The translations under genes and the position numbers were made by a program. Below are positions 56 through 13,066 of a DNA stretch of 43,951 nucleotides, piece after piece. The DNA comes from Rhodospirillales bacterium (lineage in GTDB: Bacteria; Pseudomonadota; Alphaproteobacteria; TMED109). Under the pieces are notes generated by a model. The model saw nothing but the letters and a program-made list of their open reading frames with translations, was not told the origin of the DNA and ran no database searches. The stretch spans positions 1 to 43,951 of the forward strand of contig VXPW01000040.1 in assembly GCA_009839325.1 (NCBI GenBank), written 5' to 3'. The number at the start of each line of letters is the position of its first letter. Within the stretch, counting starts at the first letter, position 1.

Positions 56-78
56 GGGAATTACGTACTTCGCTAGCC
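56..78 (+). repeat. Left terminal inverted repeat of the IS1595-family element
   Basis: It begins GGGAATTACGT, then ACTTCG, then CTAGCC. It matches the complement of 3188-3210 at 20 of 23 positions; the three differences are at positions 12, 16 and 17 of the repeat. Similarity stops after base 78. Confidence 0.9.
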
Positions 79-150
79 GAATCTGACGCGCGCGCAATGC
101 CGCCCCTTGCGGGGGTCCGGCGAAATCCATAAGACTCTGGGCGGATAAAC

Positions 151-186
151 GGCGGGCGGGGTCCCACAAAAGTCCCCCAACCCGCC
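151..186 (+). promoter_or_regulatory. Hairpin in the transposase leader
   Basis: GGCGGG (151-156) pairs with CCCGCC (181-186), and an inner GGGG (158-161) pairs with CCCC (from 174). The hairpin lies between the left end and the transposase start at 293. It could reduce transposase expression from read-through transcription, as leader structures do in other insertion sequences; that role is inferred. Confidence 0.4.
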
Positions 187-292
187 TAGGTAAAACAGAT
201 CACGCCTTGCCGAGACAAGGCCAGACCCTTCGGGAGTGTGTACCAGCTCCCGCCGGGTTTCGGCAAGGATCTCCCGAAAGGAGATTCTTGCG

Positions 293-1222
293 ATGAATGC
301 AACCCGGAAACTCTCGCTCGTCGCCCTGCTCGAGATGTTCCCCGACGAGCGCTCGGCCGTCCAGTGGCTGGAGGCGCAACGCTGGCCGGACGGCCCGGAA
401 TGCACGCACTGCGGCTCCGACAACGTGCGTGCGGAGAAACACGCTAGGCCGATGCCGTGGCGGTGCCGGGACTGCCGCAAGCACTTCAGTGTCCGCACGG
501 GATCGGTGATGGCCGAATCGCCGCTGCCGCTGCGGAAGTGGGTGCTGGCGTACTGGCTCTACGCGACCAGCCCCAAGGGCGTGAGCAGCCTGACGCTCGC
601 CCGCGATCTCGGAATCTCGCAGAAGTCGGCGTGGTTCATGGCGCACCGTATCCGGGAGGCCATGCGCGACGAGGACCTGCCCCTGTTCGAGGGGCCGGTA
701 GAGGTTGACGAAGCCTACGTGGGTGGCCTTGAGAAGAACAAGCACCGCTGCAAGCGGCAGCGTGTGGGTGGGGGCGGCGGCGGCAAGACGATCGTCGCGG
801 GTGTCCTGGACCGCGCCACCAATCAGGTGAGTGCGGCCGTCATACCGGATGTCACGCGGTCAGTGATGCGACGGTTCATCCGGAAACGGGTACATCCCCT
901 CGCCATCGTCTGCACCGATGAGGCCGGGGGCTACCGCAACATTCCGTTCCGTCGCCGGATGGTGAACCACAGTCGCGGCCATTACGTCGACGGCGATGTG
1001 TACACCAACGGGATCGAATCGTTCTGGGCGTTGCTCAAACGAGCGCACAAGGGCACGCACCACTGGATGAGCCCTAAGCACCTGGACCGTTACGTGCAGG
1101 AATTGGCGGCACGGCACGGTCTGCGAAATCAGCCCACCCTTGACGTGCTGCGCACGGTTGTTCGGCGGGGGATCGGTCGGCGGTTGACCTACGCGGATCT
1201 TACCGCGCCTGTGCCCCGCTGA
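293..1222 (+). CDS. IS1595-family (ISXO2-like) transposase
   Basis: This 309-aa protein catalyses transposition of the element that contains it. An N-terminal zinc ribbon has Cys pairs at 37/40 (CTHC) and 58/61 (CRDC). A helix-turn-helix-like stretch follows around residues 95-125. The catalytic core shows D139 in VEVDEAYVGG, D209 in CTDEAGGY, and N239, E242 and K249 in the YTNGIESFW block typical of ISXO2/IS1595 enzymes. The ATG at 293 is chosen because AAAGGAG lies 8 bases upstream; an earlier in-frame start would add 19 residues without a ribosome site. A six-Gly run near residue 160 is unusual but in frame. The gene looks intact. Confidence 0.92.
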   Translation: MNATRKLSLVALLEMFPDERSAVQWLEAQRWPDGPECTHCGSDNVRAEKHARPMPWRCRDCRKHFSVRTGSVMAESPLPLRKWVLAYWLYATSPKGVSSLTLARDLGISQKSAWFMAHRIREAMRDEDLPLFEGPVEVDEAYVGGLEKNKHRCKRQRVGGGGGGKTIVAGVLDRATNQVSAAVIPDVTRSVMRRFIRKRVHPLAIVCTDEAGGYRNIPFRRRMVNHSRGHYVDGDVYTNGIESFWALLKRAHKGTHHWMSPKHLDRYVQELAARHGLRNQPTLDVLRTVVRRGIGRRLTYADLTAPVPR

Positions 1223-1260
1223 CGCAGTGGACCGCGCCGGCTGCAGATGGTAAAAGGGAA

Positions 1261-1307
1261 TGCCGCCCGAATGCAGTTTTTCGCGAGAAAACCGCGTCCG
1301 GGCGGCA
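1261..1307. terminator. Large hairpin between transposase and tRNA-Ile
   Basis: TGCCGCCCG (1261-1269) pairs perfectly with CGGGCGGCA (1299-1307). Inside, a second stem joins GCAGTTTT with AAAACCGC with one mismatch. It lies 38 bases after the transposase stop and 14 bases before the tRNA. It may end transposase transcription or act in processing of a transposase-tRNA transcript. No U-tract follows the outer stem, so a classical terminator is not certain. Confidence 0.5.
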
Positions 1308-1321
1308 CAGGAAACTCAGGA

Positions 1322-1397
1322 GGGCCCATAGCTCAAGCGGTAAGAGCACCGGACTGATAATCCGACGATGCGGGATCGACACCCGCTGGGTCCACCA
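1322..1397 (+). tRNA. tRNA-Ile (anticodon GAU), carried by the transposon
   Basis: A full cloverleaf can be drawn: acceptor GGGCCCA/TGGGTCC (one G-U), D stem GCTC/GAGC with GG in the loop, anticodon stem CCGGA/TCCGA (one C-A mismatch at the top), loop CTGATAA with anticodon GAT at 1356-1358, a 4-base variable loop, T stem GCGGG/CCCGC and T loop ATCGACA. CCA is encoded. The T loop has A instead of the usual T at position 54 but keeps T55, C56 and A58. The gene sits inside an IS1595-family element, not in an rRNA operon where tRNA-Ile(GAU) is usually found. No clear promoter lies between the 1261-1307 hairpin and the tRNA, so co-transcription with the transposase is possible. Confidence 0.82.
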
Positions 1398-1406
1398 GAG
1401 TAGCGC

Positions 1407-1456
1407 ACAGCGAACGCGTAACGCGTACGCTGTGTGCATGCTACATGCATGCTACA
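1407..1456. repeat. Hairpin followed by two tandem 11-bp repeats
   Basis: ACAGCGAACGCG pairs with CGCGTACGCTGT (1407-1433, one mismatch, 3-base loop) just after the tRNA and may end its transcription. It is followed by TGCATGCTACA repeated exactly twice (1435-1445, 1446-1456), each containing the palindrome GCATGC. The repeats lead straight into the 17-bp palindrome at 1460. Together they form a dense non-coding block of unknown role. Confidence 0.6.
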
Positions 1457-1459
1457 AGA

Positions 1460-1476
1460 TGTTCCATTATGGAACA
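1460..1476. promoter_or_regulatory. Operator-like palindrome, copy 1 (TGTTCCATTATGGAACA)
   Basis: This is a 17-bp palindrome with 8-bp perfect arms around one central base. The same site with a different centre occurs at 2099-2115. Two copies of TGTTCCANNNTGGAACA about 640 bp apart in one mobile element suggest a dimeric DNA-binding protein. This copy lies just beyond the terminator of the leftward gene pair. Confidence 0.55.
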
Positions 1477-1508
1477 AGCTGGAGTCTTCGGAAAAGGCTG
1501 ACGACGCG

Positions 1509-1536
1509 AAAAAGCTGAAGCTCAACGCCAGCTTTT
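1509..1536 (-). terminator. Rho-independent-type terminator of the leftward cargo pair
   Basis: On the minus strand AAAAGCTG (1536-1529), an 11-base loop and CAGCTTTTT (1517-1509) form a stem ending in a T run. It follows the stop codon at 1545 by a few bases. A wider pairing (1489-1500 with 1529-1539) is also possible. Confidence 0.65.
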
Positions 1537-1544
1537 CCGAAATC

Positions 1545-1823
1545 TTACGAGTCGACTTCGCCTGCGTTCAGCAGCCAGCTCTGGATAACCCGGTACTTGT
1601 CAATCTTCGAGGGGAAGTCCAGCAATGGGCTCTCTTCAGCTAGCAGCTCCCGGTAAAAGGGAAGCGCGCCGAGACTCTCCGGCCAGTCGGCTTTCGGCTT
1701 TCGTTCGCGGAAAGCCTGAATGATCGCGCGGCGTGCTTTGTCCCTGTCGCCCGCCCTGAAAACCGAACGGGCGATCTCTTCCGGCGTCTGATCCGTGGGG
1801 AGCAGGTGGATGGGATCGGGCAT
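1545..1823 (-). CDS. Small transposon-borne protein of unknown function (92 aa)
   Basis: I do not recognise this protein. It is 92 residues, starts MPDPIHLLPTDQTPEEIA, has a basic helical middle (RDKARRAIIQAFRERKP) and an acidic C-terminal half (LLAEESPLLDF). The start is well supported: GGAGG lies 7 bases before the ATG at 1823. It follows the membrane-protein frame by 34 bases and is followed by a terminator, so the two probably form one unit. It has no signal peptide or transmembrane segment. It is clearly cargo, as it lies inside the inverted repeats. The palindromes at 1460 and 2099 flank the unit, which would suit autoregulation, but no obvious DNA-binding fold is visible. Confidence 0.75.
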   Translation of the reverse strand: MPDPIHLLPTDQTPEEIARSVFRAGDRDKARRAIIQAFRERKPKADWPESLGALPFYRELLAEESPLLDFPSKIDKYRVIQSWLLNAGEVDS

Positions 1824-1857
1824 GGTGTCCTCCGGTGGACGGGGTTACCTCGGGGAG

Positions 1858-2079
1858 CTACACACTTCCGTCCGCGCCGCCGTCCGTACCGATATCCCCT
1901 TCATCAATGTTGCGAGATACGTCGGCGCGACCAGCAAGCGTCGTAGCGACCACCAGCGCAGCCGCGAGCGTCGGAATCGTCCAGACCATCTCGCCGGTGA
2001 AGTAGGCGACCGCATAGGACGGCAACAGAACGATCGTGATTTGGGCAGCGAGACGCGCTGGCGTGGACAGTTTCTTCAC
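1858..2079 (-). CDS. Small two-helix membrane protein, transposon cargo (about 73 aa)
   Basis: I do not recognise the family. The frame encodes a positively charged start (KKLSTPARL), then two hydrophobic segments, ITIVLLPSYAVAYF and TIPTLAAALVVATTLAG, and a hydrophilic acidic tail (NIDEGDIGTDGGADG). That pattern predicts a two-pass inner-membrane protein. The start is uncertain: I chose GTG at 2079 because no ATG occurs in frame after the upstream palindrome, but no good ribosome-binding site precedes it. Its stop lies 34 bases before the next leftward gene. A plausible promoter (TTCCAC, 17 bases, TAAGGT) runs into the palindrome at 2099-2115, so this gene is probably first in a regulated pair. 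Confidence 0.5.
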   Translation of the reverse strand: MKKLSTPARLAAQITIVLLPSYAVAYFTGEMVWTIPTLAAALVVATTLAGRADVSRNIDEGDIGTDGGADGSV

Positions 2080-2098
2080 AAAGTCGTACAGGGCGCAC

Positions 2099-2115
2099 TG
2101 TTCCAGAATGGAACA
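2099..2115. promoter_or_regulatory. Operator-like palindrome, copy 2 (TGTTCCAGAATGGAACA)
   Basis: Seven-base perfect arms surround a 3-base centre, matching the 1460-1476 site except for that centre. On the minus strand the bases just upstream read TTCCAC, 17 bases, TAAGGT, a weak -35/-10 pair that abuts the palindrome. This is a typical operator position over the transcription start of the leftward cargo pair. Confidence 0.5.
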
Positions 2116-2317
2116 CCTTACCCCATTCGCTGGTAGAGTGGAATCAGCAAATCCTGCGTGGCCCCGCTGAGTCGGGTCGCCCGCTAAATACAACAGCCTC
2201 TTGCCCGGCTCGGGGTAGCTCCCCAAGCCCAGGCGAATAGGCGGGATTCTCCACCTTTCCACGTGGGATTTGCTACGGCCCGGCGTCCGCCCGGCCGAGC
2301 ACCGTGGAAAACACGTC

Positions 2318-2725
2318 ATGGTTAGAAGAATCCTTGTGGCCGCAGCCATCGGGCTCGCGGCCGTGTGCGGTTCTGCTGGGGCGCAGGACATGTACACCCT
2401 TCCATCACTGCCGGGATTGCCCGGCCTGCCGGAACTGCCCGGCGTGGGCACGATGCCGGTGAATCCGTACCAGCCTCGCGTGCAGGTTCCCTACATGGAC
2501 CCGAACGTGGGGCAGATCCTCGAGTACGGCCGCCAGAACCAGCAGCTCTACGAGCGCCGGCGCCAGCGGATGAACAATAATCTCTTGCTGCAGCCGTGGG
2601 AGATGCAGGAGCAGTACGACAGCTACCAGCGGCAGCGGAGGAACGCCCTGCGGAGCATCCTGCAACGATGCGCCCAGTACAACCGTGGGTGCTTCAATGA
2701 ACTCGGGGGATTGGGGTCGGAATAA
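2318..2725 (+). CDS. Exported Pro-rich protein of unknown function, transposon cargo (135 aa)
   Basis: The protein starts MVRRILVAAAIGLAAV and has a clear Sec signal peptide with a likely cut after SAGA (near residue 22). A Leu-Pro-Gly-rich segment with repeated LPGL/LPEL units follows, then a Gln/Arg/Asn-rich helical region with tracts such as YERRRQRMNNN and YQRQRRNAL. Two Cys near the end (RCAQYNRGCF) could form a disulfide. Function unknown; the composition suggests a periplasmic or surface-associated protein. The ATG at 2318 is preferred over one 48 bases upstream because the signal peptide then starts at once. The ribosome site is weak (GGAAAA). A hairpin at 2742-2765 follows. Confidence 0.65.
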   Translation: MVRRILVAAAIGLAAVCGSAGAQDMYTLPSLPGLPGLPELPGVGTMPVNPYQPRVQVPYMDPNVGQILEYGRQNQQLYERRRQRMNNNLLLQPWEMQEQYDSYQRQRRNALRSILQRCAQYNRGCFNELGGLGSE

Positions 2726-2741
2726 CGCCAGTTCGTCACGT

Positions 2742-2765
2742 GGAGGCAGTCTCAGCACTGCCTCC
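2742..2765 (+). terminator. Hairpin between the two rightward cargo genes
   Basis: GGAGGCAGT pairs perfectly with ACTGCCTCC around a 6-base loop, 17 bases after the stop at 2725. It lacks a clean T run (TTCATCT follows), so it may attenuate rather than stop transcription into the next gene. Confidence 0.5.
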
Positions 2766-2785
2766 TTCATCTAGGAGACCCTTCA

Positions 2786-3067
2786 ATGTCACCCAATCAC
2801 GATGCTAGAACCGACTACGAAGAATGGCTTTGGAGTTTGTCGGCACAAGTCGCCCTGCTGAACGAACTCCTGTCCAGCGTCATTGTTGCCGCACTTCCCC
2901 CAGATACTATCGACGCGATTGTCGAGGACCTAGACGTCCCCGGTCCTGACGACTCCCCACGACTTCAACGTGCTCTCGAGACGGCGAGCGACAACTTGGC
3001 GGAAGTCCTTTCCCAAAAACGTGCGGCACTTCGGGCGTCTGGGAAGCCTGCGTCCATGGGAGAATAA
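2786..3067 (+). CDS. Small acidic helical protein of unknown function, transposon cargo (93 aa)
   Basis: I do not recognise it. The 93 residues start MSPNHDARTDYEEWLWSL and are predicted mostly helical, with a hydrophobic helix (VALLNELLSSVIVAAL) that is too mixed to be a confident membrane segment, an Asp/Pro-rich linker (DLDVPGPDDSP) and a second amphipathic helix. AGGAGA lies 8 bases before the ATG, so the start is well supported. It is the last gene before the right end of the transposon and is followed by a strong terminator at 3143. It might be a partner or adaptor protein, but nothing in the sequence shows that directly. Confidence 0.7.
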   Translation: MSPNHDARTDYEEWLWSLSAQVALLNELLSSVIVAALPPDTIDAIVEDLDVPGPDDSPRLQRALETASDNLAEVLSQKRAALRASGKPASMGE

Positions 3068-3142
3068 ATGCCGTCGCTGCGGCGGCCTAGTCATTGGTTT
3101 TTTCATGTCCAGAGATTACCAGCTCTACTGATCTATGTTCTA

Positions 3143-3184
3143 GGGGCGGGTACGGTATCCCTCCTGAACCCGCCCCGAACTTTT
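3143..3184 (+). terminator. Strong terminator near the right end of the transposon
   Basis: GGGGCGGGT (3143-3151) pairs perfectly with ACCCGCCCC (3168-3176) and is followed by GAACTTTT. It lies between the last cargo gene and the right inverted repeat, so cargo transcription would stop before leaving the element. Confidence 0.75.
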
Positions 3185-3187
3185 ACT

Positions 3188-3210
3188 GGCTAGTCAAGCA
3201 CGTAATTCCC
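3188..3210 (-). repeat. Right terminal inverted repeat of the IS1595-family element
   Basis: Read on the minus strand it begins GGGAATTACGTGCTT and ends CTAGCC, matching 56-78 at 20 of 23 bases. Similarity to the left end does not extend further inward. Confidence 0.9.
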
Positions 3211-3218
3211 ATAGCTTA
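3211..3218. repeat. Right target-site duplication ATAGCTTA
   Basis: It is an exact copy of 48-55, immediately outside the right inverted repeat. Confidence 0.9.
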
Positions 3219-3728: not shown

Positions 3729-4466
3729 ATGCCAATACATGATTACAGGACGGCCTTGGTTACCGGAGCGTCCGCGGGAATCGGCAGGGCGGCCGTACGT
3801 GCCCTGCGCGATGCCGGCCTTTCCGTTGTCGCTGTAGCCCGCCGTGCCGACAGGCTCGAAGCGCTGGCCGACGAAACAGGCGCAACCCCCTTGGTGCTCG
3901 ATCTTTGCAATACCGACGCGCTGTATGACGCGCTCGCACCGCTCGAGGTCGACGTCTTGATCAACAATGCCGGGCTCGGACGCGGCATGGCGAGCTTTGT
4001 CGATGCCGAACGCGGGGACATCGACCTGACGATTGAAACCAACGTGACCGCATTCCTGCACACGCTTCGCGCGGTCCTCCCGGGGATGCGCGAGCGTAAG
4101 CGCGGTCACGTGGTCGGGATCGGCTCGGTGGCCGGGCTGTATCCGCTCCAGTCACCGATTTACGGCGGCTCGAAGGGGGCTGTCCGCCTCGCCTCGCAAA
4201 ACCTGCGGCTAGATCTGGCCGGTACGGGGATCCGCGTCACCGAAATCTGTCCGGGCCGCGTCGTCACCGAGTTCGTGGCGGGCGCCGCCGGCGAGGAAGC
4301 AGCCCGCAAGACCTACGGGTCGTTCGATGAGTTGCAGCCGGAGGACATCGCGGAGGCGATCCTCTACGCCGTCAGCGCACCCTGGAGGGTGAACGTCTCA
4401 ACCATCGAGATCGTGCCCACCGAGCAGGCCTTCGGCGGACTCCGGTTCACCCGGTTCGAACGCTGA
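3729..4466 (+). CDS. SDR-family NADP-dependent oxidoreductase, YdfG-like
   Basis: A 245-aa classical short-chain dehydrogenase. The Rossmann nucleotide motif TGASAGIG is near residue 14, NNAG near residue 80, a Ser in GIGSVAG and the active-site Y-x3-K in IYGGSKGA. The C-terminal block (EICPGRVVTEF, then IEIVPTEQAFGG) matches the YdfG type, which oxidises 3-hydroxy acids and L-allo-threonine and has also been linked to malonic semialdehyde reduction. Arg-Arg after the second strand (VARRADR) suggests NADP preference. The ATG at 3729 follows an in-frame TTG at 3726. Acts in the cytoplasm; the exact substrate cannot be read from the sequence. Confidence 0.88.
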   Translation: MPIHDYRTALVTGASAGIGRAAVRALRDAGLSVVAVARRADRLEALADETGATPLVLDLCNTDALYDALAPLEVDVLINNAGLGRGMASFVDAERGDIDLTIETNVTAFLHTLRAVLPGMRERKRGHVVGIGSVAGLYPLQSPIYGGSKGAVRLASQNLRLDLAGTGIRVTEICPGRVVTEFVAGAAGEEAARKTYGSFDELQPEDIAEAILYAVSAPWRVNVSTIEIVPTEQAFGGLRFTRFER

Positions 4467-4550
4467 GTCCCTGATCACGGAGCAGCAACGTGGGATCGGG
4501 TGCGTTCGTACCCGGGGCAAGGTGGACGGGATCCCGGGGGAGTTGGACCA

Positions 4551-4991
4551 ATGCAGAAACGATTCAACGGCAGCTGTCATTGTGGCGCAATCCGCGTAAC
4601 GCTCGAAGCAGAGGGAAACGCCTCCCTGTCTCCCCGCCACTGCGGCTGTGACTTCTGCCAGCGGCACGCTGCGCTGTACGTCTCGGTTCCGTCCGGTCAC
4701 CTTACGTTGACCTTGGCCGAACCCGATTGCGTGAGCTGGTACCGGTTCGGCCACCAGACGGCAACGTTCCTGCTCTGCAGGCGATGCGGCGTATTCGCGG
4801 CCGCGACCTGCGAACTTGAAGGGCAGCTCTATGCGGTGCTGAACGCAAACGTACTGGCGCCGCCGTTGTCCGTCGACAAACCCTCCGTGCCGGTCGCCGA
4901 TTACGAGGCCGAGGACATCTCCGTCCGGCTCGCACGGCGCAAACAACGTTGGATTTCCCATGTCACGGTGGTGGAAGGGCCATCGGCGTGA
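4551..4991 (+). CDS. GFA-family (glutathione-dependent formaldehyde-activating type) zinc protein
   Basis: This 146-aa protein has the Gfa/CENP-V fold signature: CHC (GSCHCGAIRV) near the start, CDFC (CGCDFCQRH) and CRRC (LLCRRCGVFA), which bind structural and catalytic zinc ions. Family members include glutathione-dependent formaldehyde-activating enzyme, but most are uncharacterised, so the reaction here is open. The ATG at 4551 has GGGGGAG about 8 bases upstream. It stands alone between the SDR and the 2-hydroxyacid dehydrogenase. A class III alcohol dehydrogenase that acts on the formaldehyde-glutathione adduct is encoded at 25245, but not nearby. Confidence 0.8.
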   Translation: MQKRFNGSCHCGAIRVTLEAEGNASLSPRHCGCDFCQRHAALYVSVPSGHLTLTLAEPDCVSWYRFGHQTATFLLCRRCGVFAAATCELEGQLYAVLNANVLAPPLSVDKPSVPVADYEAEDISVRLARRKQRWISHVTVVEGPSA

Positions 4992-5254
4992 CAGACACGG
5001 GGAACTACGCCCGCGAAGATTCGCTTCAGAGACCTCCCTGTGCCTACCGTACCCGGATAGATGCACGGAGAGCGAACGCGACTTCTTGATGAGCCGGAGA
5101 CTTCCGGAACCGGCAAGGCATTGAGTGCCGGCTTCGATCTGTTAGAAGTCCGTGCGGCCGGTCCGTACGGCGGTTACCTCATTTCCAGTTGATCAAACCG
5201 TCAGGGCCCGAGCAATGACCACCACCCTCCCCTCGCGAAGCTCCTCGCCCCGCC

Positions 5255-6229
5255 ATGCCTGAGCCGCTGATCGCCTTCCTCTGGCCGGAAGTCGATTTCC
5301 GGGCGACCGGTCTCACGGTACCCGATGGCTTCGCGATCCGTTTCGGGCGGGCAACCGTCCGCGCCGAAGTGGAGGCCGGCGCCGCCGGCGCGGACTACAT
5401 CCTGATCGGATCCGGTTTCGGCTTCGTGGACAAGGCGCTGCTCGACCTAGCGCCCAGGGTCAGGCTGGTTCAGCTGACCGGTGCCGGCTACGACAATGTC
5501 GATCATGCCGAGTGCGCGCGTCGCGGTATTCCCGTGTGCCACGTCCCGGGCCTCAATGCACCGTCGGTGGCGCAGCTGGCGGTCCAGCTGGCTTTCCGTC
5601 TCACCCGCCCCCTCACCATGATCGAGGCCGGGGGCGAGACCGAGTGGCTCGCCGCTCGCAAGGCGCACGCCGACATGGCGCACGAGCTTTCCGGCCGGGT
5701 CGGTGTCATCGGTTACGGCCATATCGGCAAGCAGATCGCTCGCATGTTCCGCGGTCTCGGGCTTGAAGTCGTACGGGCTGAGCACGCGCGTCAGCACGAC
5801 CCGGAAATCCAGGGAGTGCCGCTGGACGAGCTCCTGGCGACCTCCGACATCGTCACGGTGTCGCTGCCCGCGCGACGTGACACCCACCATGTGCTCAATC
5901 GCGAGCGCGTCGGTCGCATGAAGCCCGGAGCCATGCTCATTCACGTCGGCCGGGGGGGAGTCGTCGATGACGACGCCGTGGCCGAGGCTCTCGAGACCGG
6001 ACGGCTTGGGGCAGCCGGCTTCGACGTGTTCGAGTCGGAGCCGTTGCCCCCTGATCATCCCTTTCTCAATCTGTCCGAAGCAGCGAGGAACCGGCTGCTC
6101 GTCACCCCGCACGTGGGGGGTCAGACCTTCGAATCCAAGCGACGGAATTTCGAAGTGGCGTTGAGCAACGTCGTCCGGGTGTCGCGCGGCGAAGAGCCGA
6201 TCAACCGCGCACCAGGCCCCGGCTCCTGA
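5255..6229 (+). CDS. D-isomer-specific 2-hydroxyacid dehydrogenase
   Basis: A 324-aa NAD(P)-dependent dehydrogenase of the phosphoglycerate/hydroxypyruvate/glyoxylate reductase superfamily. The Rossmann motif GVIGYGHIGKQIA lies near residue 149. The catalytic triad is visible: Arg in SLPARRDTHH (near 206), Glu in FESEPLPPDHPF (near 259) and His in TPHVGG (near 284). The N-terminal substrate domain has VQLTGAGYDNVD and VAQLAVQLAF. It probably reduces a 2-keto acid such as hydroxypyruvate or glyoxylate; the substrate is not determined by sequence. No close operon partner; a Baeyer-Villiger-type gene faces it 118 bases downstream. Confidence 0.88.
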   Translation: MPEPLIAFLWPEVDFRATGLTVPDGFAIRFGRATVRAEVEAGAAGADYILIGSGFGFVDKALLDLAPRVRLVQLTGAGYDNVDHAECARRGIPVCHVPGLNAPSVAQLAVQLAFRLTRPLTMIEAGGETEWLAARKAHADMAHELSGRVGVIGYGHIGKQIARMFRGLGLEVVRAEHARQHDPEIQGVPLDELLATSDIVTVSLPARRDTHHVLNRERVGRMKPGAMLIHVGRGGVVDDDAVAEALETGRLGAAGFDVFESEPLPPDHPFLNLSEAARNRLLVTPHVGGQTFESKRRNFEVALSNVVRVSRGEEPINRAPGPGS

Positions 6230-6346
6230 CCACGACGGATCCAGACGGCCCGATCGCGCCATTCAAGCCGAGGTGACGGCCGAAGCGCCGCGCCCGCCTA
6301 TCGGTCCAAACCGGCCGCCAGACGCGCGACAGCCGGCTTTTGGCGC

Positions 6347-7999
6347 CTAGGCTCCGACCTTCTCTCCGGTCATCACGAAACCTTCATAGCCCTTGGCGAC
6401 GATGTCGTCGCAGGCCTTCTTGTACGTGTGCACACCGCCGACATACGGCATGAAGACCCGCGGCTTCCCGGGGATGTTGGCTCCCATGTACCAGGAATTG
6501 GCCTGCGGATAGAGCGTGGCGTCCGCCACTTCACGGACATGGTTGACCCAGTCCTCCTGGGCCTTCGCCGTCGGCACGATCCGGTTCTGGCCGTCACGCC
6601 GCATCCGCTCGAGGCAGTCCGCGATCCAGTCGACGTGCATCTCTATCGACAGGATCATCTGGCTCTTGACGCCGGGGCTCTGCGGACCCGTCACCATGAA
6701 CAGGTTGGGCAGCCCCGCCACCATCAAGCCGAGGTAGGTGCGCGGCCCTCCGGTCCATTGCTCCTCGAGCGTGACCCCGTCCTTCACCCGGATGTCGATC
6801 GCGAGCATCGCGCCCGTCATGGCGTCGAAGCCGGTGGCAAATACGATCGCATCCAGTTCGAAGTCCGCTTCCGTCGTCCGGATTCCGCTTCGCGTGATCG
6901 TCTCGATCGGGGTCTTCCTGAGGTCCACGAGCGACACGTGCGGTTCGTTGTAGGTCTCGAAATAGTTGGTATCGAGGATCAGGCGTTTCGTGCCGATCGG
7001 GTGATTGTCCGGGCACAGGTGTTCAGCGGTCACCGGGTCCTTCACCGTTCGACGAATCTTCTCGCGCACGAATTCCGCCGCGGTCTCGTTGGCGTCGATG
7101 TCCTGAAGCAGATCGGTGTACGAGAACAGGAAGCTGATGCTGCCGCCCTCCTGCCACTTGGCCTCGTACTGGGCGCGGCGTTCCTCCGAAGCAGCCTCCA
7201 GCGCCTTCTTGGTCGGCGGCGGATAGCCCGCGATCCCGAACGGCGTGTCATACGCAGCCTGGCGGCGTTCGCCATACGCCGCCTTGTGCTCGCGCACGGT
7301 CTCTGGATCGTGCGGGCGGTTGCGGGCCGGCAGAATGAAATTGGCGGTACGCTGGAACACGGTCAGCTGCGCTGCCTGCGCCGCGATATGCGGGATGGAC
7401 TGCACGCCGGAGGAGCCCGTGCCGACGACGCCTACTTTCAGGCCGGTGAAGTCGACACCGTCCTTCGGCCAGAGCCCCGTGTGGTACGACTTGCCCTCGA
7501 ACGCATCGAGGCCCGGATAGGCTGGGCGGCGCGGCGTGGAGAGATTGCCGGCCGCCATGATGCAGACCGGCGCGGTCACCTGCTCCCCGGCCGCCGTCGT
7601 CAGCGTCCACAGCAGCGTGTCCTCGTCGAATTCCGCCGCCGTGATCCGCGTGTTCAGCTGGACATCGCGCATCAGGTCGAATCGCTCGACCACGTGGTGG
7701 ATGTACTTCAGGATCTCAGGCTGGGTTCCGTACCGTTCCGGCCACTCCCATTCCTGCTGCAGGTCCTCGTCGAAGGAGAAGGAGTACTCGAGGCTCTCGA
7801 CGTCGCAGCGGCAACCGGGATACCGGTTCCAGAACCAGGTTCCGCCGACACCGTCCCCCGTCTCGTAGGCGCGCACCCGGAGGCCGAGCTTCCGCAGGCG
7901 GTAGATGGCGTACAGCCCCGCGACCCCGGCCCCGACAATGACCGCGTCGAAGTCGGCGTTCGGATTCGAGAGGAACGGGCTGGCTGCGTCGTCCGGCAT
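6347..7999 (-). CDS. Flavin-containing Baeyer-Villiger-type monooxygenase
   Basis: A 550-aa class B flavoprotein monooxygenase. The FAD-binding GxGxxG is in VIVGAGVAGLYA near the start, and the NADPH site is in VGVVGTGSSGVQ. Between them is FEGKSYHTGLWP, which fits the Baeyer-Villiger fingerprint FxGxxxHTxxWP. It would insert oxygen next to a ketone to form an ester or lactone, using NADPH and O2. The start is one of two adjacent ATGs (8002 or 7999); AGGAGA is best spaced for the second. It lies about 100 bases downstream of a nitronate-monooxygenase-like gene on the same strand and may be co-transcribed with it. The ketone substrate is unknown. Confidence 0.9.
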   Translation of the reverse strand: MPDDAASPFLSNPNADFDAVIVGAGVAGLYAIYRLRKLGLRVRAYETGDGVGGTWFWNRYPGCRCDVESLEYSFSFDEDLQQEWEWPERYGTQPEILKYIHHVVERFDLMRDVQLNTRITAAEFDEDTLLWTLTTAAGEQVTAPVCIMAAGNLSTPRRPAYPGLDAFEGKSYHTGLWPKDGVDFTGLKVGVVGTGSSGVQSIPHIAAQAAQLTVFQRTANFILPARNRPHDPETVREHKAAYGERRQAAYDTPFGIAGYPPPTKKALEAASEERRAQYEAKWQEGGSISFLFSYTDLLQDIDANETAAEFVREKIRRTVKDPVTAEHLCPDNHPIGTKRLILDTNYFETYNEPHVSLVDLRKTPIETITRSGIRTTEADFELDAIVFATGFDAMTGAMLAIDIRVKDGVTLEEQWTGGPRTYLGLMVAGLPNLFMVTGPQSPGVKSQMILSIEMHVDWIADCLERMRRDGQNRIVPTAKAQEDWVNHVREVADATLYPQANSWYMGANIPGKPRVFMPYVGGVHTYKKACDDIVAKGYEGFVMTGEKVGA

Positions 8000-8104
8000 C
8001 ATCCGTCTCCTAGTCGCACCCGAACAGTCCGATCCACTTGCGGGACACGTCGGCAATTTCGGCCCGAGACACTATACGGGCGATTCCGGCGGCCGCGTGC
8101 CTCC

Positions 8105-9502
8105 CTAGTCCCCCGTCTGCAGACGGGTGACCAGCTGGCGGACGGTCGGAATGAAACCGCCCTCGTAGAACGGGTCCTCGGCGAACCGCCAGGCGTTGTG
8201 GCCCGCGAACATGAGCTGCGTGTCCACGTCCGCGTTGTGGGCAATGTCCTGCAAGGTCTTCTGGATACAGAAGCTCCGCGGATCGGCCTTCCGGCCGGTG
8301 CGGTGATCCTCGTTGTCGGCCCAGTTGGAGAACAGGCACTGCGACAGGCAGCCCATGCACTCGGTCTGGTCCCGGCGAATCGACCGGGCCCGGTCCGGCG
8401 AGACGAACAGCATCGTCTGCGCCGGGGTCCGGAGGCCTTCCGTGTGCCCGGCCGCCAGCCATTCGCGGGCACGGGATGCATCGGCCGGGATCATCCACAC
8501 CCGGCGCTTCCTGGCCCCGACCTCGACCGCCTCGGTCTGGTCACCCTCCGCTTGCAGGGCGTACGGCACCTGCCGGAGGCTTCGCTCATCGAGTTCCTCG
8601 AGGAACTTGTTCCGTACCGCCGATGAATAGAAGCCCGTCGGGCTGTGGCGGTGCAGACTGACATCCCCGTGCCTGAGCGTGAGCAGGCGCTTCTTCCACT
8701 GGGGCGAAATCGGGCTCTCGGTGGTCAGCAGCGGGCGCGTGCCGAACTGGAACGCGACGGGCCCCAACTCGGGGTTGTCGATCCAGTCCGCCCAGTCGCG
8801 GAGATACCACACCCCGCCCGCGATGATGATGGGCGTGTCGGCGAGGCCGACCGCCGACATTTCCCTGCGGAGCGCGGTCACGCGCGGATACGGCGGTTCC
8901 GGCTGTTTCGGATCTTCCGCGTTCGACAGTCCGTTGTGACCGCCGGCCAGCCACGGGTCCTCGTAGACGACGCCGCCCAGCCATTCCGGATTGCGGTGGT
9001 AGGAGCGCCGGAACAGCACACGGAACGCCCGTGCCGAACTCACGATGGGGTAGTAGTACACCCCGAATCGCGCCGCGATTTCACTCAGCTTGTACGGCAT
9101 GCCGGCGCCGCATGTGACCCCGTGGATCAACCCCTTTGCCCGCGCCAGAATGCCCTCGAGCACCCGGCGGGCCCCGCCCATTTCCCACAGGATGTTGACG
9201 TGCAGCCGGCCTTCGCCCCGACGCTCCTCATGGGCGATCTGCGCCTGGGTGACGCCGCCGGCGATCGAGTACCGGACCAGCTCCTCGTGCCGTTCGACGC
9301 GTGTCCTGCCAGAGTAGATCTGGGGGATCACGCGTCCCTTGGCGTCCAGCGAGTCCGCGTTCACGCCCGAGAAGGTGCCGACGCCGCCGGCGAACGCCCA
9401 CGCCCCTGCGCTTCGGCCGTTGGTCACCGAGATTCCCTTCCCGCCCTCGATGAGGGGCAGGATCTCCCGGCCAGCCATGCGGATCGCATTCAGGGGCTTC
9501 AT
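8105..9502 (-). CDS. Nitronate monooxygenase-like FMN oxidoreductase with Cys-rich C-terminus
   Basis: A 465-aa protein of the 2-nitropropane dioxygenase/nitronate monooxygenase superfamily. Barrel landmarks include GVTCGAGMPYK (central His/Cys strand), TPIIIAGGVW and VAFQFGTRPLL (phosphate-binding loop). It is longer than the usual ~320-360 aa because of a C-terminal extension of about 120 residues carrying CMGCLSQC and a further Cys in SFCIQKTL. Those four Cys could bind metal or an Fe-S cluster; that is inference. The gene begins 31 bases after the pnp stop, so it may receive transcription from that operon, and it precedes the Baeyer-Villiger-type gene. Substrate unknown. Confidence 0.75.
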   Translation of the reverse strand: MKPLNAIRMAGREILPLIEGGKGISVTNGRSAGAWAFAGGVGTFSGVNADSLDAKGRVIPQIYSGRTRVERHEELVRYSIAGGVTQAQIAHEERRGEGRLHVNILWEMGGARRVLEGILARAKGLIHGVTCGAGMPYKLSEIAARFGVYYYPIVSSARAFRVLFRRSYHRNPEWLGGVVYEDPWLAGGHNGLSNAEDPKQPEPPYPRVTALRREMSAVGLADTPIIIAGGVWYLRDWADWIDNPELGPVAFQFGTRPLLTTESPISPQWKKRLLTLRHGDVSLHRHSPTGFYSSAVRNKFLEELDERSLRQVPYALQAEGDQTEAVEVGARKRRVWMIPADASRAREWLAAGHTEGLRTPAQTMLFVSPDRARSIRRDQTECMGCLSQCLFSNWADNEDHRTGRKADPRSFCIQKTLQDIAHNADVDTQLMFAGHNAWRFAEDPFYEGGFIPTVRQLVTRLQTGD

Positions 9503-9533
9503 CCGTGAACCTCTCCGGCGCGCGGCCGCCAGT

Positions 9534-11687
9534 CTACTCCCAAGCCGGAGGGCGCATGCGCCGGGCGGGCTCCGGCGCCGACTTGGCGCGATTGGCCAGG
9601 TCCTCGCCGGACGCCTGGTCCACCGCCTTCATCGACAGGCGGACCCGGCCACGGTCGTCGACTTCGATCACCTTGACCTTGACCTCGTCCCCCTCCTGCA
9701 CGACGTCCTGGACCGAGCGGACGCGGCGCGGAACCAGTTCGCTGATGTGGACAAGGCCGTCGCGCTTGCCGAAGAAGTTCACGAACGCGCCGAAATCCAC
9801 GACCTTCACGACCGTTCCGTCATAGATGCCGCCGATTTCCGGCTCAGCCACGATGCTGTTGATTTCCTTGAGCGCGAGATCGATGGATTCCTGGCTGCTG
9901 GAGGCGATCTGCACCGTGCCATCGTCGTTCACGTCGACCGTGGCGCCCGACGTTGCACAGATCTCGCGAATGATCTTGCCGCCCGGGCCAATGATTTCCC
10001 GGATACGGTCCACCGGGATCTTGATGCCGACGATCTTCGGTGCGTGCGCGCTCATCTCGGAGCGAGCGCTGCTCAGGGCCCCTTCCATCGCGTCGAGGAT
10101 GTGGAAGCGTCCGTCGCGCGCCTGGTTCAGGGCCGTCTGCATGATCTCCTCGGTGATTCCCGTGATCTTGATGTCCATCTGTAGCGACGTGATCCCGTCC
10201 CGGGTCCCGGCCACCTTGAAGTCCATGTCCCCGAGGTGGTCCTCGTCGCCGAGAATGTCCGAAAGGACGGCGAACTGGTCGTCCTCCTTGATGAGCCCCA
10301 TGGCGATTCCTGCCACCGGGCGCGCCACCGGGACGCCCGCGTCCATCATGGCCAGCGACGACCCGCAGACGGTCGCCATCGACGACGATCCGTTCGATTC
10401 CGTGATCTCCGAGATGACCCGGATCGTGTAGGGAAAGGTTTCCGCATCGGGAAGGAGCGGGCGCAGAGCGCGCCAGGCCAGCTTGCCGTGACCGATTTCA
10501 CGGCGACCGGGCCCGAACATCCGGCCGGTTTCACCGACCGAATACGGCGGGAAGTTGTAGTGCAGCATGAAGCGCTCGCGGGCAACCCCGTCCAGCGATT
10601 CAACCACCTGCTCGTCCGGCGTGGTTCCCAGAGTCACGCTGACCAGCGCCTGCGTCTCGCCGCGCGTGAACAGTGCGGACCCGTGCGTGCGCGTAAGCAG
10701 TCCGGCGCGGCACTCGATCGGCCGGACGGTCTGCACGTCGCGCCCGTCGATCCGGGTGCCGGTCTCCAGGATGGCGGACCGGACAATGTCCTTCTCGAGC
10801 TTCTTGAGCGCGTCCCCCACGGCCGTCGCGTCGTGCTCTTCGCCCGCCCGCTCGCCGACGTCGGCGCGCACCGCGGCCACTTGCTCGACCCGCTGCTGCT
10901 TTTCCTGCACCTGGTAGGCCGCGCGAAGGCCGTCGCCGCCAGCCTCGGCGACGAACGCCTGCACCGCGCTGTGATCCTCGGCCTCTTCGGTCGCCCAAGG
11001 CTCCCGGGCAGCGGCAGCAGCCAGGTCGGCGATGGCACTGATGACGGGCTGCATGTGCTCGTGGCCGAACATCACTGCTCCCAGCATGGTCTCCTCGGAC
11101 AGCTCGTTGGCTTCCGATTCCACCATCAGCACGCCATCCCGCGTGCCGGCCACGACCAGATCAAGATGACTGTCGGCAAGCTCCGGAATGCGCGGGTTGA
11201 GGACGTAGGCGCCATCCGCAAAGCCGACCCGCGCCCCTGCGATCGGGCCCATGAACGGCGCGCCCGAGAGCGCCAGGGCGGCGGACGCGCCGACCATTGC
11301 CGGGATGTCGGGATCGTTCTCGAGGTCGGCGCTCAGCACCGTGCAGATGATCTGGAGCTCGTTGCGGAACCCGGCCGGAAACAGGGGGCGAATTGGTCGG
11401 TCGATCAGCCGCGACGTCAGGGTTTCCTTCTCCGAGGGCCGCCCTTCACGCTTGAAGAAGCCGCCGGGGATACGGCCGGCTGCCGACATCTTTTCCTGAT
11501 AGTTGACGGTCAGCGGGAAGAAGTCCGCGCCCTCGCGAACTTCCCTCCGCGCCACGGCGGTGCATAGGACCTGGGTCTCCCCGTACGTGACCAAGACCGC
11601 GCCGTCGGCCTGCCGGGCCATCAGCCCGGTCTCGATGGCAAGGGGACGTCCGCCCCAATCGACTTGCTGGCGTTGGATATTGAACAT
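9534..11687 (-). CDS. pnp: Polyribonucleotide nucleotidyltransferase (PNPase)
   Basis: A 717-aa 3'-5' phosphorolytic exoribonuclease of mRNA decay. Two RNase PH domains are visible (first with [12 protein letters not shown] and [12 protein letters not shown]; second with [13 protein letters not shown] and the [13 protein letters not shown] catalytic block with its conserved Asp residues). These are followed by a KH domain ([15 protein letters not shown], near residue 565) and an S1 domain ([20 protein letters not shown]). Length is normal for the family. It is the last gene of the nusA-to-pnp cluster, 177 bases after rpsO, and is preceded by a long hairpin that could serve for autoregulation as in E. 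coli. Confidence 0.97.
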
Positions 11688-11864: not shown

Positions 11865-12134
11865 CTACTTCCTAAGATTGAGACGACGAAGGATGTCCTG
11901 GTACTTGGCCTCATTGGATCTCTGAAGGTAATCGAGAAGCCTGCGGCGCGAGTTGACCATTCCAACCAGCCCCCGCCGTGAGTCCGCGTCCTTGTGGTTC
12001 GCCTTGCAGTGCTCGGTGAGATTGTTGATCCGTTCCGTCAGGATCGCGATCTGGACCTCGGGTGAGCCCGTATCGGACCCGTCCCGAGAGTATTCGGAAA
12101 TGAGCGCCGTCTTGCGCTCAGCTGTAATCGACAT
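11865..12134 (-). CDS. rpsO: 30S ribosomal protein S15
   Basis: An 89-aa S15, the usual length. It starts [15 protein letters not shown] and contains the signatures [20 protein letters not shown] and [24 protein letters not shown], which bind the central domain of 16S rRNA. The ATG at 12134 overlaps the truB stop (TGATG), so the two are translationally coupled. It lies between truB and pnp as in most proteobacteria. Confidence 0.97.
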
Positions 12135-13066
12135 CAGCTGTTCCCTTCGGACCGGTTGCGCATCCCCGGATCGTTCCGGAAGACCCGCCGGGGAGAAAAC
12201 TCCCGGTTGCTCCACTGGCCGACCGCCACTGCCCGGCCGTCGCAAGAGGCGACAACAGCGCCTTCCCTGATGAACTTGCAGGGGACTTGCTCCGGACAGA
12301 CACGACGACCCTGCCGGGCGCGTGCCGCTTCCCTCTCTGTCAGTTCCAGCACCGGGATGCCGGCCAGTGCCGCGTCGAGGGGCAGAAGTTCCGCACCAAC
12401 CCCCCCTTTATCCGCGATTGCAGCAAGTTCTGCAACCGTTACGGCGTCCTCCTCGGCGAACCGGCCGGACCGGGTCCGCCGCAGCATGACCACGTGTCCC
12501 TCGGTGGCGAGGACCTTCGCCAGGTCCCGGGCCAGGCTACGAACATAGGTCCCCTTGCCGCAGGCCATGTGGAAGTCCGCGTGATCCGCATCCGGCATGT
12601 CAACGAGTGCAAGCTCGTGCACCTGTACCCGGCGCGGCGCCGGCTCGACCGCGGTCCCCGCCCGCGCCAACGCGTAGGCGCGCCTGCCCTGGACATGGAC
12701 AGCGGAGTAGGCGGGCGGAATCTGCGTGATCGTGCCCGTAAACGCCGGCAGGGCCCTGCGGATCGCCCCGGACGACGGTCGCGTCGAGCTGCATGCCGTG
12801 ACCTTGCCGCCGGCATCGAGGGTGTCGCGGGCTTCGCCCCAGCGGACCCGGAAGCGATAGGCCTTGGTGCCCTCCATCGCCCACTGCATCGTCTTGGTGG
12901 CCTCCCCGACCGCAATCGGCAGGACACCCGTGGCGAGCGGATCCAGTGTGCCTGCGTGACCCGCCTTCGAGGCGCCGAGCAACCGTTTCACCTGCGCGAC
13001 GGCGCGCGCCGAAGACATCCCGGCGGGCTTGTCCAGAACAAGCCAGCCGGCTGGCTCAGGCGGCAT
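12134..13066 (-). CDS. truB: tRNA pseudouridine(55) synthase
   Basis: TruB makes pseudouridine at position 55 in the T loop of tRNAs. The catalytic Asp is in the [16 protein letters not shown] motif near residue 40. Further landmarks are [13 protein letters not shown] and [14 protein letters not shown]. The start at 13066 ([14 protein letters not shown]) overlaps the rbfA stop by 11 bases and gives a normal 310-aa protein; an ATG at 13102 would add 12 residues (MSTVSSTPRRRL), and neither has a strong ribosome site. The element-borne tRNA-Ile keeps T55, the TruB target. Confidence 0.95.

Follow-up and report, generated by a model that had tools for sequence, protein, structure and literature searches.

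Positions 56-3210 of contig VXPW01000040.1 from a Rhodospirillales bacterium hold a complete transposon of the IS1595 family. The contig of 43,951 nucleotides (nt) is the window, in which all element coordinates are given. On balance, it appears probable, if only somewhat, that a known kind of transposon here carries as cargo the gene of an exported protein together with an undescribed, riboswitch-like leader RNA. The transposon frame is ordinary, as IS1595 elements with passenger genes are already known as transporter insertion sequences (transporter IS). A structured 5' leader that unrelated exported-protein genes share, some of them aboard two families of transposon, would amount to a mobile regulatory cassette. 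Should it prove to sense something, it could reveal how unrelated symbionts come to adjust their surface and secreted proteins to a single signal.

A structured leader RNA before exported-protein genes

The RNA segment (2142-2294, plus strand) was first seen as well-conserved DNA beyond the transposase in a DNA search of 144 related genomes; an earlier, sequence-only reading of the window had made no mention of it. It lies just upstream of the gene for a 135-amino-acid (aa) secreted protein with a signal peptide-like start (2318-2725, plus strand) and is a conserved structured RNA in a putative 5' untranslated region (UTR). In the covariance model built for it (R1), positions 2146-2161 pair with 2259-2274 as a closing stem around a near-invariant core (GAATA, CCCGCY/GGCGGG). 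The sequence of the stem differs among eight copies, seven of which pair throughout in a hand-set register and one (L028) partly. Among the 91 of 104 distinct sequences that could be cut by fixed anchors, a copy's own arm was its best partner in 75, with mean energies of -28.5 kcal/mol for own arms and -12.7 kcal/mol for swapped arms; some of these copies had entered the set through R1, which includes the stem, and most through a sequence pattern that excludes it. Further, in an alignment (A6) fitted to R1 and hence leaning toward its pairs, double changes occurred in 33/37 pairs and the covariation score was 0.511 compared with 0.142 after shuffling, with none of 500 shuffles reaching the observed values.

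At the 3' side, the strand GRCCCGGC (GGCCCGGC in the window, 2277-2284, plus strand) can pair either with GUCGGGYC (GTCGGGTC, 2171-2178, plus strand) in a proposed pseudoknot, or with the GCCGG that follows it in a competing terminal hairpin. At least seven of eight pseudoknot pairs are available in 85/90 sequences and at least four of five hairpin pairs in 77/90, both together in 73. When the strands are slid against each other, pseudoknot pairing reaches at most 57%; the pseudoknot is absent from R1.

The RNA shares with riboswitches and orphan 5' leaders in Rfam a conserved core, a variable covarying stem and a predicted place in the 5' UTR, and its two 3' pairings may likewise exclude each other. 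It differs from them in that it has no Rfam match and precedes many kinds of exported proteins rather than the genes of a single pathway. In the window and in loci L025, L026, L031 and L067, no Rfam match at E ≤ 1 fell on the RNA, apart from chance hits that lay off it or barely overlapped it, and Rfam 15 at gathering thresholds placed no family there. The literature, searched by title and with few subscription papers covered, gave no account of such a leader, of tRNA passengers or of IS1595 elements in sponge symbionts, which is weak evidence of absence.

A core pattern that omits the closing stem was found in 104 stretches among the genomes of 84,980 species, about two of which would be expected by chance according to our own estimate. 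All 80 of the loci retrieved had an R1 match at E ≤ 0.05 (R1 E-values are rough), four being cut by the end of the locus and one partial. A search with R1 gave 27 copies in 10 of the 144 relatives, including 7/7 genomes of the genus, and the 114 hits in all (27 + 87) reduced to 104 distinct sequences. One hit (G000:C73, L022; 17.2 bits, E 0.24) was not counted as a copy. Among 398 genomes drawn from the phylum and searched under stricter filters, only the host's own genome had the RNA; plasmids and phages gave no match, and viral contigs no instance of the core pattern. The titles of the metagenome-assembled genomes concerned name Alpha- and Gammaproteobacteria, Gemmatimonadetes, Acidobacteria, Bryobacterales and Chloroflexota, subject to possible binning errors. 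The hosts are apparently sponge symbionts: the word sponge occurs in a single title, and the prefixes CAR, COS, RHO and IRC fit four sponge genera that were sampled in PMC8163846 (in whose accessible part RHO, COS and IRC do not occur as words).

The genes that follow the RNA were assessed in the 97/104 copies with at least 210 nt downstream. By a crude, home-made rule, an open reading frame (ORF) with a signal peptide followed in 62/97 copies, compared with 6/100 on the mirror side, 33/1040 at random points and 65/594 among other ORFs. A lipobox was found in 27/97, compared with 1/100, 3/1040 and 10/594, respectively. Against other ORFs, Fisher P values were 3e-28 for signal peptides and 3e-17 for lipoboxes, computed over loci that are partly related and hence not independent. 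In 67 cases with a hydrophobic start, the median distance from the RNA to the start codon was 28 nt. Further, over 102 leaders, 38/58 TTGAC/TTGCA boxes lay at -35 to -26 from the start of the model, a spacing which suggests that transcription starts near the 5' edge of the RNA.

Taken together, these features suggest the following mode of action. The RNA, some 150 nt long, would form the 5' UTR of the exported-protein gene, and its core would fold within the long variable stem. Shortly before the start codon, GRCCCGGC would choose between pseudoknot and hairpin and thereby alter access to the ribosome site. The choice may determine how far the exported protein is translated, probably as a response to some ligand or condition. 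More tentatively still, and short of what we would call probable, the RNA may serve mainly to control genes for exported proteins and lipoproteins in several phyla of apparent sponge symbionts, spread in part by transposons of at least two IS families and answering a common signal from the host or community.

Several observations weigh against a switching leader. By the crude rule, 35/97 leaders have no signal-peptide ORF, and 6/97 have no ORF of at least 45 aa. The window's own copy has no -35 box at the spacing usual in the others, a promoter search there gave none on the plus strand, and masking of the ribosome site was not clearly seen. Further, although the pseudoknot is conserved, covariation does not prove it, because its strands vary little: its cells are paired in 98.6% of cases compared with 97.8% in shuffles, and double changes occur in two cells only. 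This low variation, the strong closing stem and the place just before start codons would suit an ordinary transporter IS whose leader acts as a stable fold in the 5' UTR, enhancing or protecting the expression of exported-protein mRNAs with neither switching nor ligand. Such a role is credible, but we regard it as rather unlikely. For a plain stabiliser, there would be no need of the near-invariant core, nor for the same copies to retain both competing pairings. That the segment acts as DNA, as a folded recombination or exchange site of the integron attC kind through which cargo is swapped, is very improbable: the genes that follow do differ between elements and cargo exchange is visible between two of them (L023 and L032), but the fixed short distance to the start codon, the use of one strand, the promoter-box spacing and the signal-peptide bias speak against it. 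For a regulatory leader, the 104 copies, the model R1 and the predicted competing pairs are directly testable.

The RNA is not part of a transposon as such; it precedes many exported-protein genes as their leader, and transposons carry some of these genes. This follows because only 14/104 copies lie inside transposons with both ends, 81/104 have no IS1595 transposase within 5 kb (many loci are short) compared with 23/104 that do, and among 15 bounded elements picked by their transposase alone only three contain the RNA (L253, L259 and L266). Twelve of the 14 are in IS1595 elements (that of the window, L027, L030, L031, L064, L069, L075, L080, L115, L125 twice and L141). In L025 and L147 the ends lack a duplication, and L130 is a partial case; none of these three is counted among the 14. 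The remaining two of the 14 are in IS1-like elements (L083 and L102). These resemble the window element in carrying the leader RNA between matching ends with 8-bp duplications, and differ from it in ends that begin GGTAGTG and in transposases that resemble IS1. The transposase of L102 scores 35.1 bits, above the Pfam cut-off; that of L083 is below the Pfam and NCBIfam cut-offs.

Two loci with several copies deserve mention. In L067, three leader RNAs (6251-6400, 10628-10779 and 12069-12224) lie within 6 kb, each preceding a different lipoprotein-like gene, and no transposase was found in the locus. L125 (2166-7811) is a 5.6-kb IS1595 element with two leader RNAs, a tRNA-Glu and lipoprotein-like genes; its record bears the title Candidatus Porisulfidus (sponge).

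The transposon and its relatives

The sequence-only reading had proposed that a complete transposon of the IS1595 family, flanked by an exact 8-bp target duplication, is present and encodes one transposase, and each of these proposals held. An inverted-repeat scan paired 50-78 with 3188-3216 (29 nt, 83% complementary), and comparison of the ends placed the 23-bp terminal inverted repeats at 56-78 and 3188-3210 (both listed on the plus strand), 17 of the first 20 bases matching between them. The ends begin GGGAATTA and are shared with relatives, whose ends are GG..TTATA-like. The duplication ATAGCTTA is identical in 8/8 bases at 48-55 and 3211-3218, the length typical of the family. The transposase (293-1222, plus strand; 309 aa if read from the ATG at 293) matches PF12762 (E 1.2e-35, 123.3 bits), PF12760 (E 2.6e-8) and the NCBIfam IS1595 model NF033547 (181.5 bits, cut-off 75).

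The comparison with an empty site that the same reading had proposed came out in favour of insertion. From its first base, the right flank matches a congener (G003) at 92%, and there (L191) the 55-bp left end (98%), which is all the left flank available before the contig begins, is joined directly to the right flank with ATAGCTTA present once. A second congener (G002, L192) is likewise without the insertion. The single ATAGCTTA in the empty site points to a past insertion, and insertion after the split from both congeners is the simplest reading. As is standard for the family, the transposase would act on the 23-bp ends, move everything between them and leave the 8-bp duplication. The host assembly (2.73 Mb, 111 contigs) has no second copy of the element.

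Transporter IS are defined in print (PMC3129680 and PMC7986276, accessible parts), and tISCpe8, MTnSag1 and ISNha5 are IS1595 examples (PMC5704250 and PMC11891212, accessible parts), in agreement with the earlier statement that passengers are known in some IS1595 subgroups. In the accessible parts of PMC3129680, PMC5704250 and PMC11891212, the passengers named comprise a transcription regulator and resistance genes. The window element has the transposase, inverted ends, 8-bp duplication and passenger genes between the ends in common with transporter IS, whereas its passengers are a tRNA, a protein with a TPE motif and an exported protein whose gene has a structured leader.

Element DNA was matched in 19/144 genomes, the host's own included, and in 7/7 of the genus. 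Eight further elements were initially bounded, seven with an 8-bp duplication (L024 only after a one-base shift of its end) and L025 with ends and no duplication. A class-wide transposase search gave 50/385 genomes at E ≤ 1e-60, from which 30 loci were retrieved. The curated set comprises 30 elements, each bounded at both ends and together 96.5 kb long: that of the window, seven from element DNA, seven from the RNA and 15 from the transposase search. The duplication is 8/8 in 29 of them, and L080 was included because its contig as a whole starts and finishes with the repeat. L025, L147, L263, L268, L275 and L278, with ends and no duplication, stand outside the set. Script bounds for L075, L142, L158, L255, L261 and L282 were attributed to chance (12-14/20 end matches, duplication 7/8), those of L075 being replaced by better ends at 4240-11680. 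The bounds proposed for L263 were also rejected, its "ends" being two tRNA genes that face each other.

The cargo is modular, a small TPE-motif protein, a tRNA gene in some elements and an exported-protein gene being its parts. A small ORF of the TPExLARAxLR type occurs in 10/30 curated elements compared with one match in 150 kb of flanks, a count that is inflated because several of the elements counted had served to define the motif by eye. The sequence-only reading had suggested an evolved cargo unit and a search for the same cargo elsewhere. The whole set was found in no other element by DNA search of the 144 relatives; its modules do recur in other IS1595 elements, namely a secreted protein with leader RNA (L031), the TPE-motif protein, tRNA genes and the leader RNA. 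Cargo differs between elements, with DNA methyltransferase-like proteins that bear an HNH-like end (named by eye) in L023 and L032, lipoproteins in L025 and L030, and further kinds elsewhere. The L025 lipoprotein matches NCBIfam slam_lipo (E 8e-6, 26.2 bits) under the cut-off of 80. Between L023 and L032, stretches of cargo DNA are 90% and 86% identical and transposase DNA 68%, a sign of cargo exchange.

The tRNA and the remaining cargo

The tRNA-Ile(gat) gene (1322-1397, plus strand) noted earlier was called by both ARAGORN and Rfam (62.8 bits), with canonical fold, anticodon and CCA features. It may aid translation or be a relic. We consider the chances evenly balanced that it is a chance or decaying passenger rather than selected cargo. 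Consistent with chance, any tRNA gene is found in just 4/30 curated elements and the types differ; by our own reading position 54 is an unusual A, and the closest public DNA matches among those listed are phage records at about 80%. Like phage and plasmid tRNA genes it is a mobile tRNA gene, and it differs from them in lying between IS1595 ends after the transposase. Against chance, the six tRNAs in 96.5 kb compare with 1.4 expected at the host's tRNA density (P about 0.003) and with none in a reversed-sequence control. Further, one of the six (L069, anticodon not read) sits after the transposase as in the window, and the 1.7-kb IS1595 element of L258 (361-2066), which lies near a tRNA-Arg gene, consists of the transposase, tRNA-Ala(tgc), tRNA-Ser(gct) and little else. 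That tRNA genes and the small protein recur in IS1595 elements adds, on a smaller scale and in a form that can be checked, to what is known of the family.

The window tRNA is the only tRNA-Ile(gat) among the host's 40 tRNA matches. The idea that the transposon supplies it was nevertheless rejected: tRNA-Ala(tgc), which often neighbours tRNA-Ile(gat) in rRNA operons, is missing from the assembly too, so that the host rRNA operon is probably unassembled. In L263 (1183-2766), five tRNA-like genes lie by an IS1595 transposase, and element ends were not found.

Of the four small genes described previously, two are better supported. For the secreted protein, L031 holds a relative (44% in the alignment) and plasmids gave no match, and the 92-aa protein (1545-1823, minus strand) carries TPEEIARSVFR, of the TPE-motif kind, with no Pfam or NCBIfam family above cut-off. 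The other two are less secure. For the 93-aa acidic ORF (2786-3067, plus strand), a search of the 144 genomes found no relative in any of the 143 besides the host's own. The possible 73-aa membrane protein (1858-2079, minus strand; GTG start picked by eye) is an open frame with no Pfam or NCBIfam match, and no separate search for its relatives was made.

The terminators said to lie inside the ends were not supported, since the two terminator-like sites are not above chance (mean 3.6 in shuffles). By eye, a GC hairpin is visible near 3144-3176 with GAACTTTT after it, its loop being too long for the terminator scan. Between transposase and tRNA lies an inverted repeat (1261-1307) with 20-nt arms matching at 85%, and L069 has a hairpin, seen by eye, at the equivalent place. 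Finally, the near-identical palindromes GTTCCATTATGGAAC (1461-1475) and GTTCCAGAATGGAAC (2100-2114, upstream of the RNA) stand one on each side of the minus-strand small genes. A palindrome like GTTCCAGAATGGAAC also precedes the RNA in L031 and L064, giving 3/103 compared with 5/2060 control windows, too few to build on.

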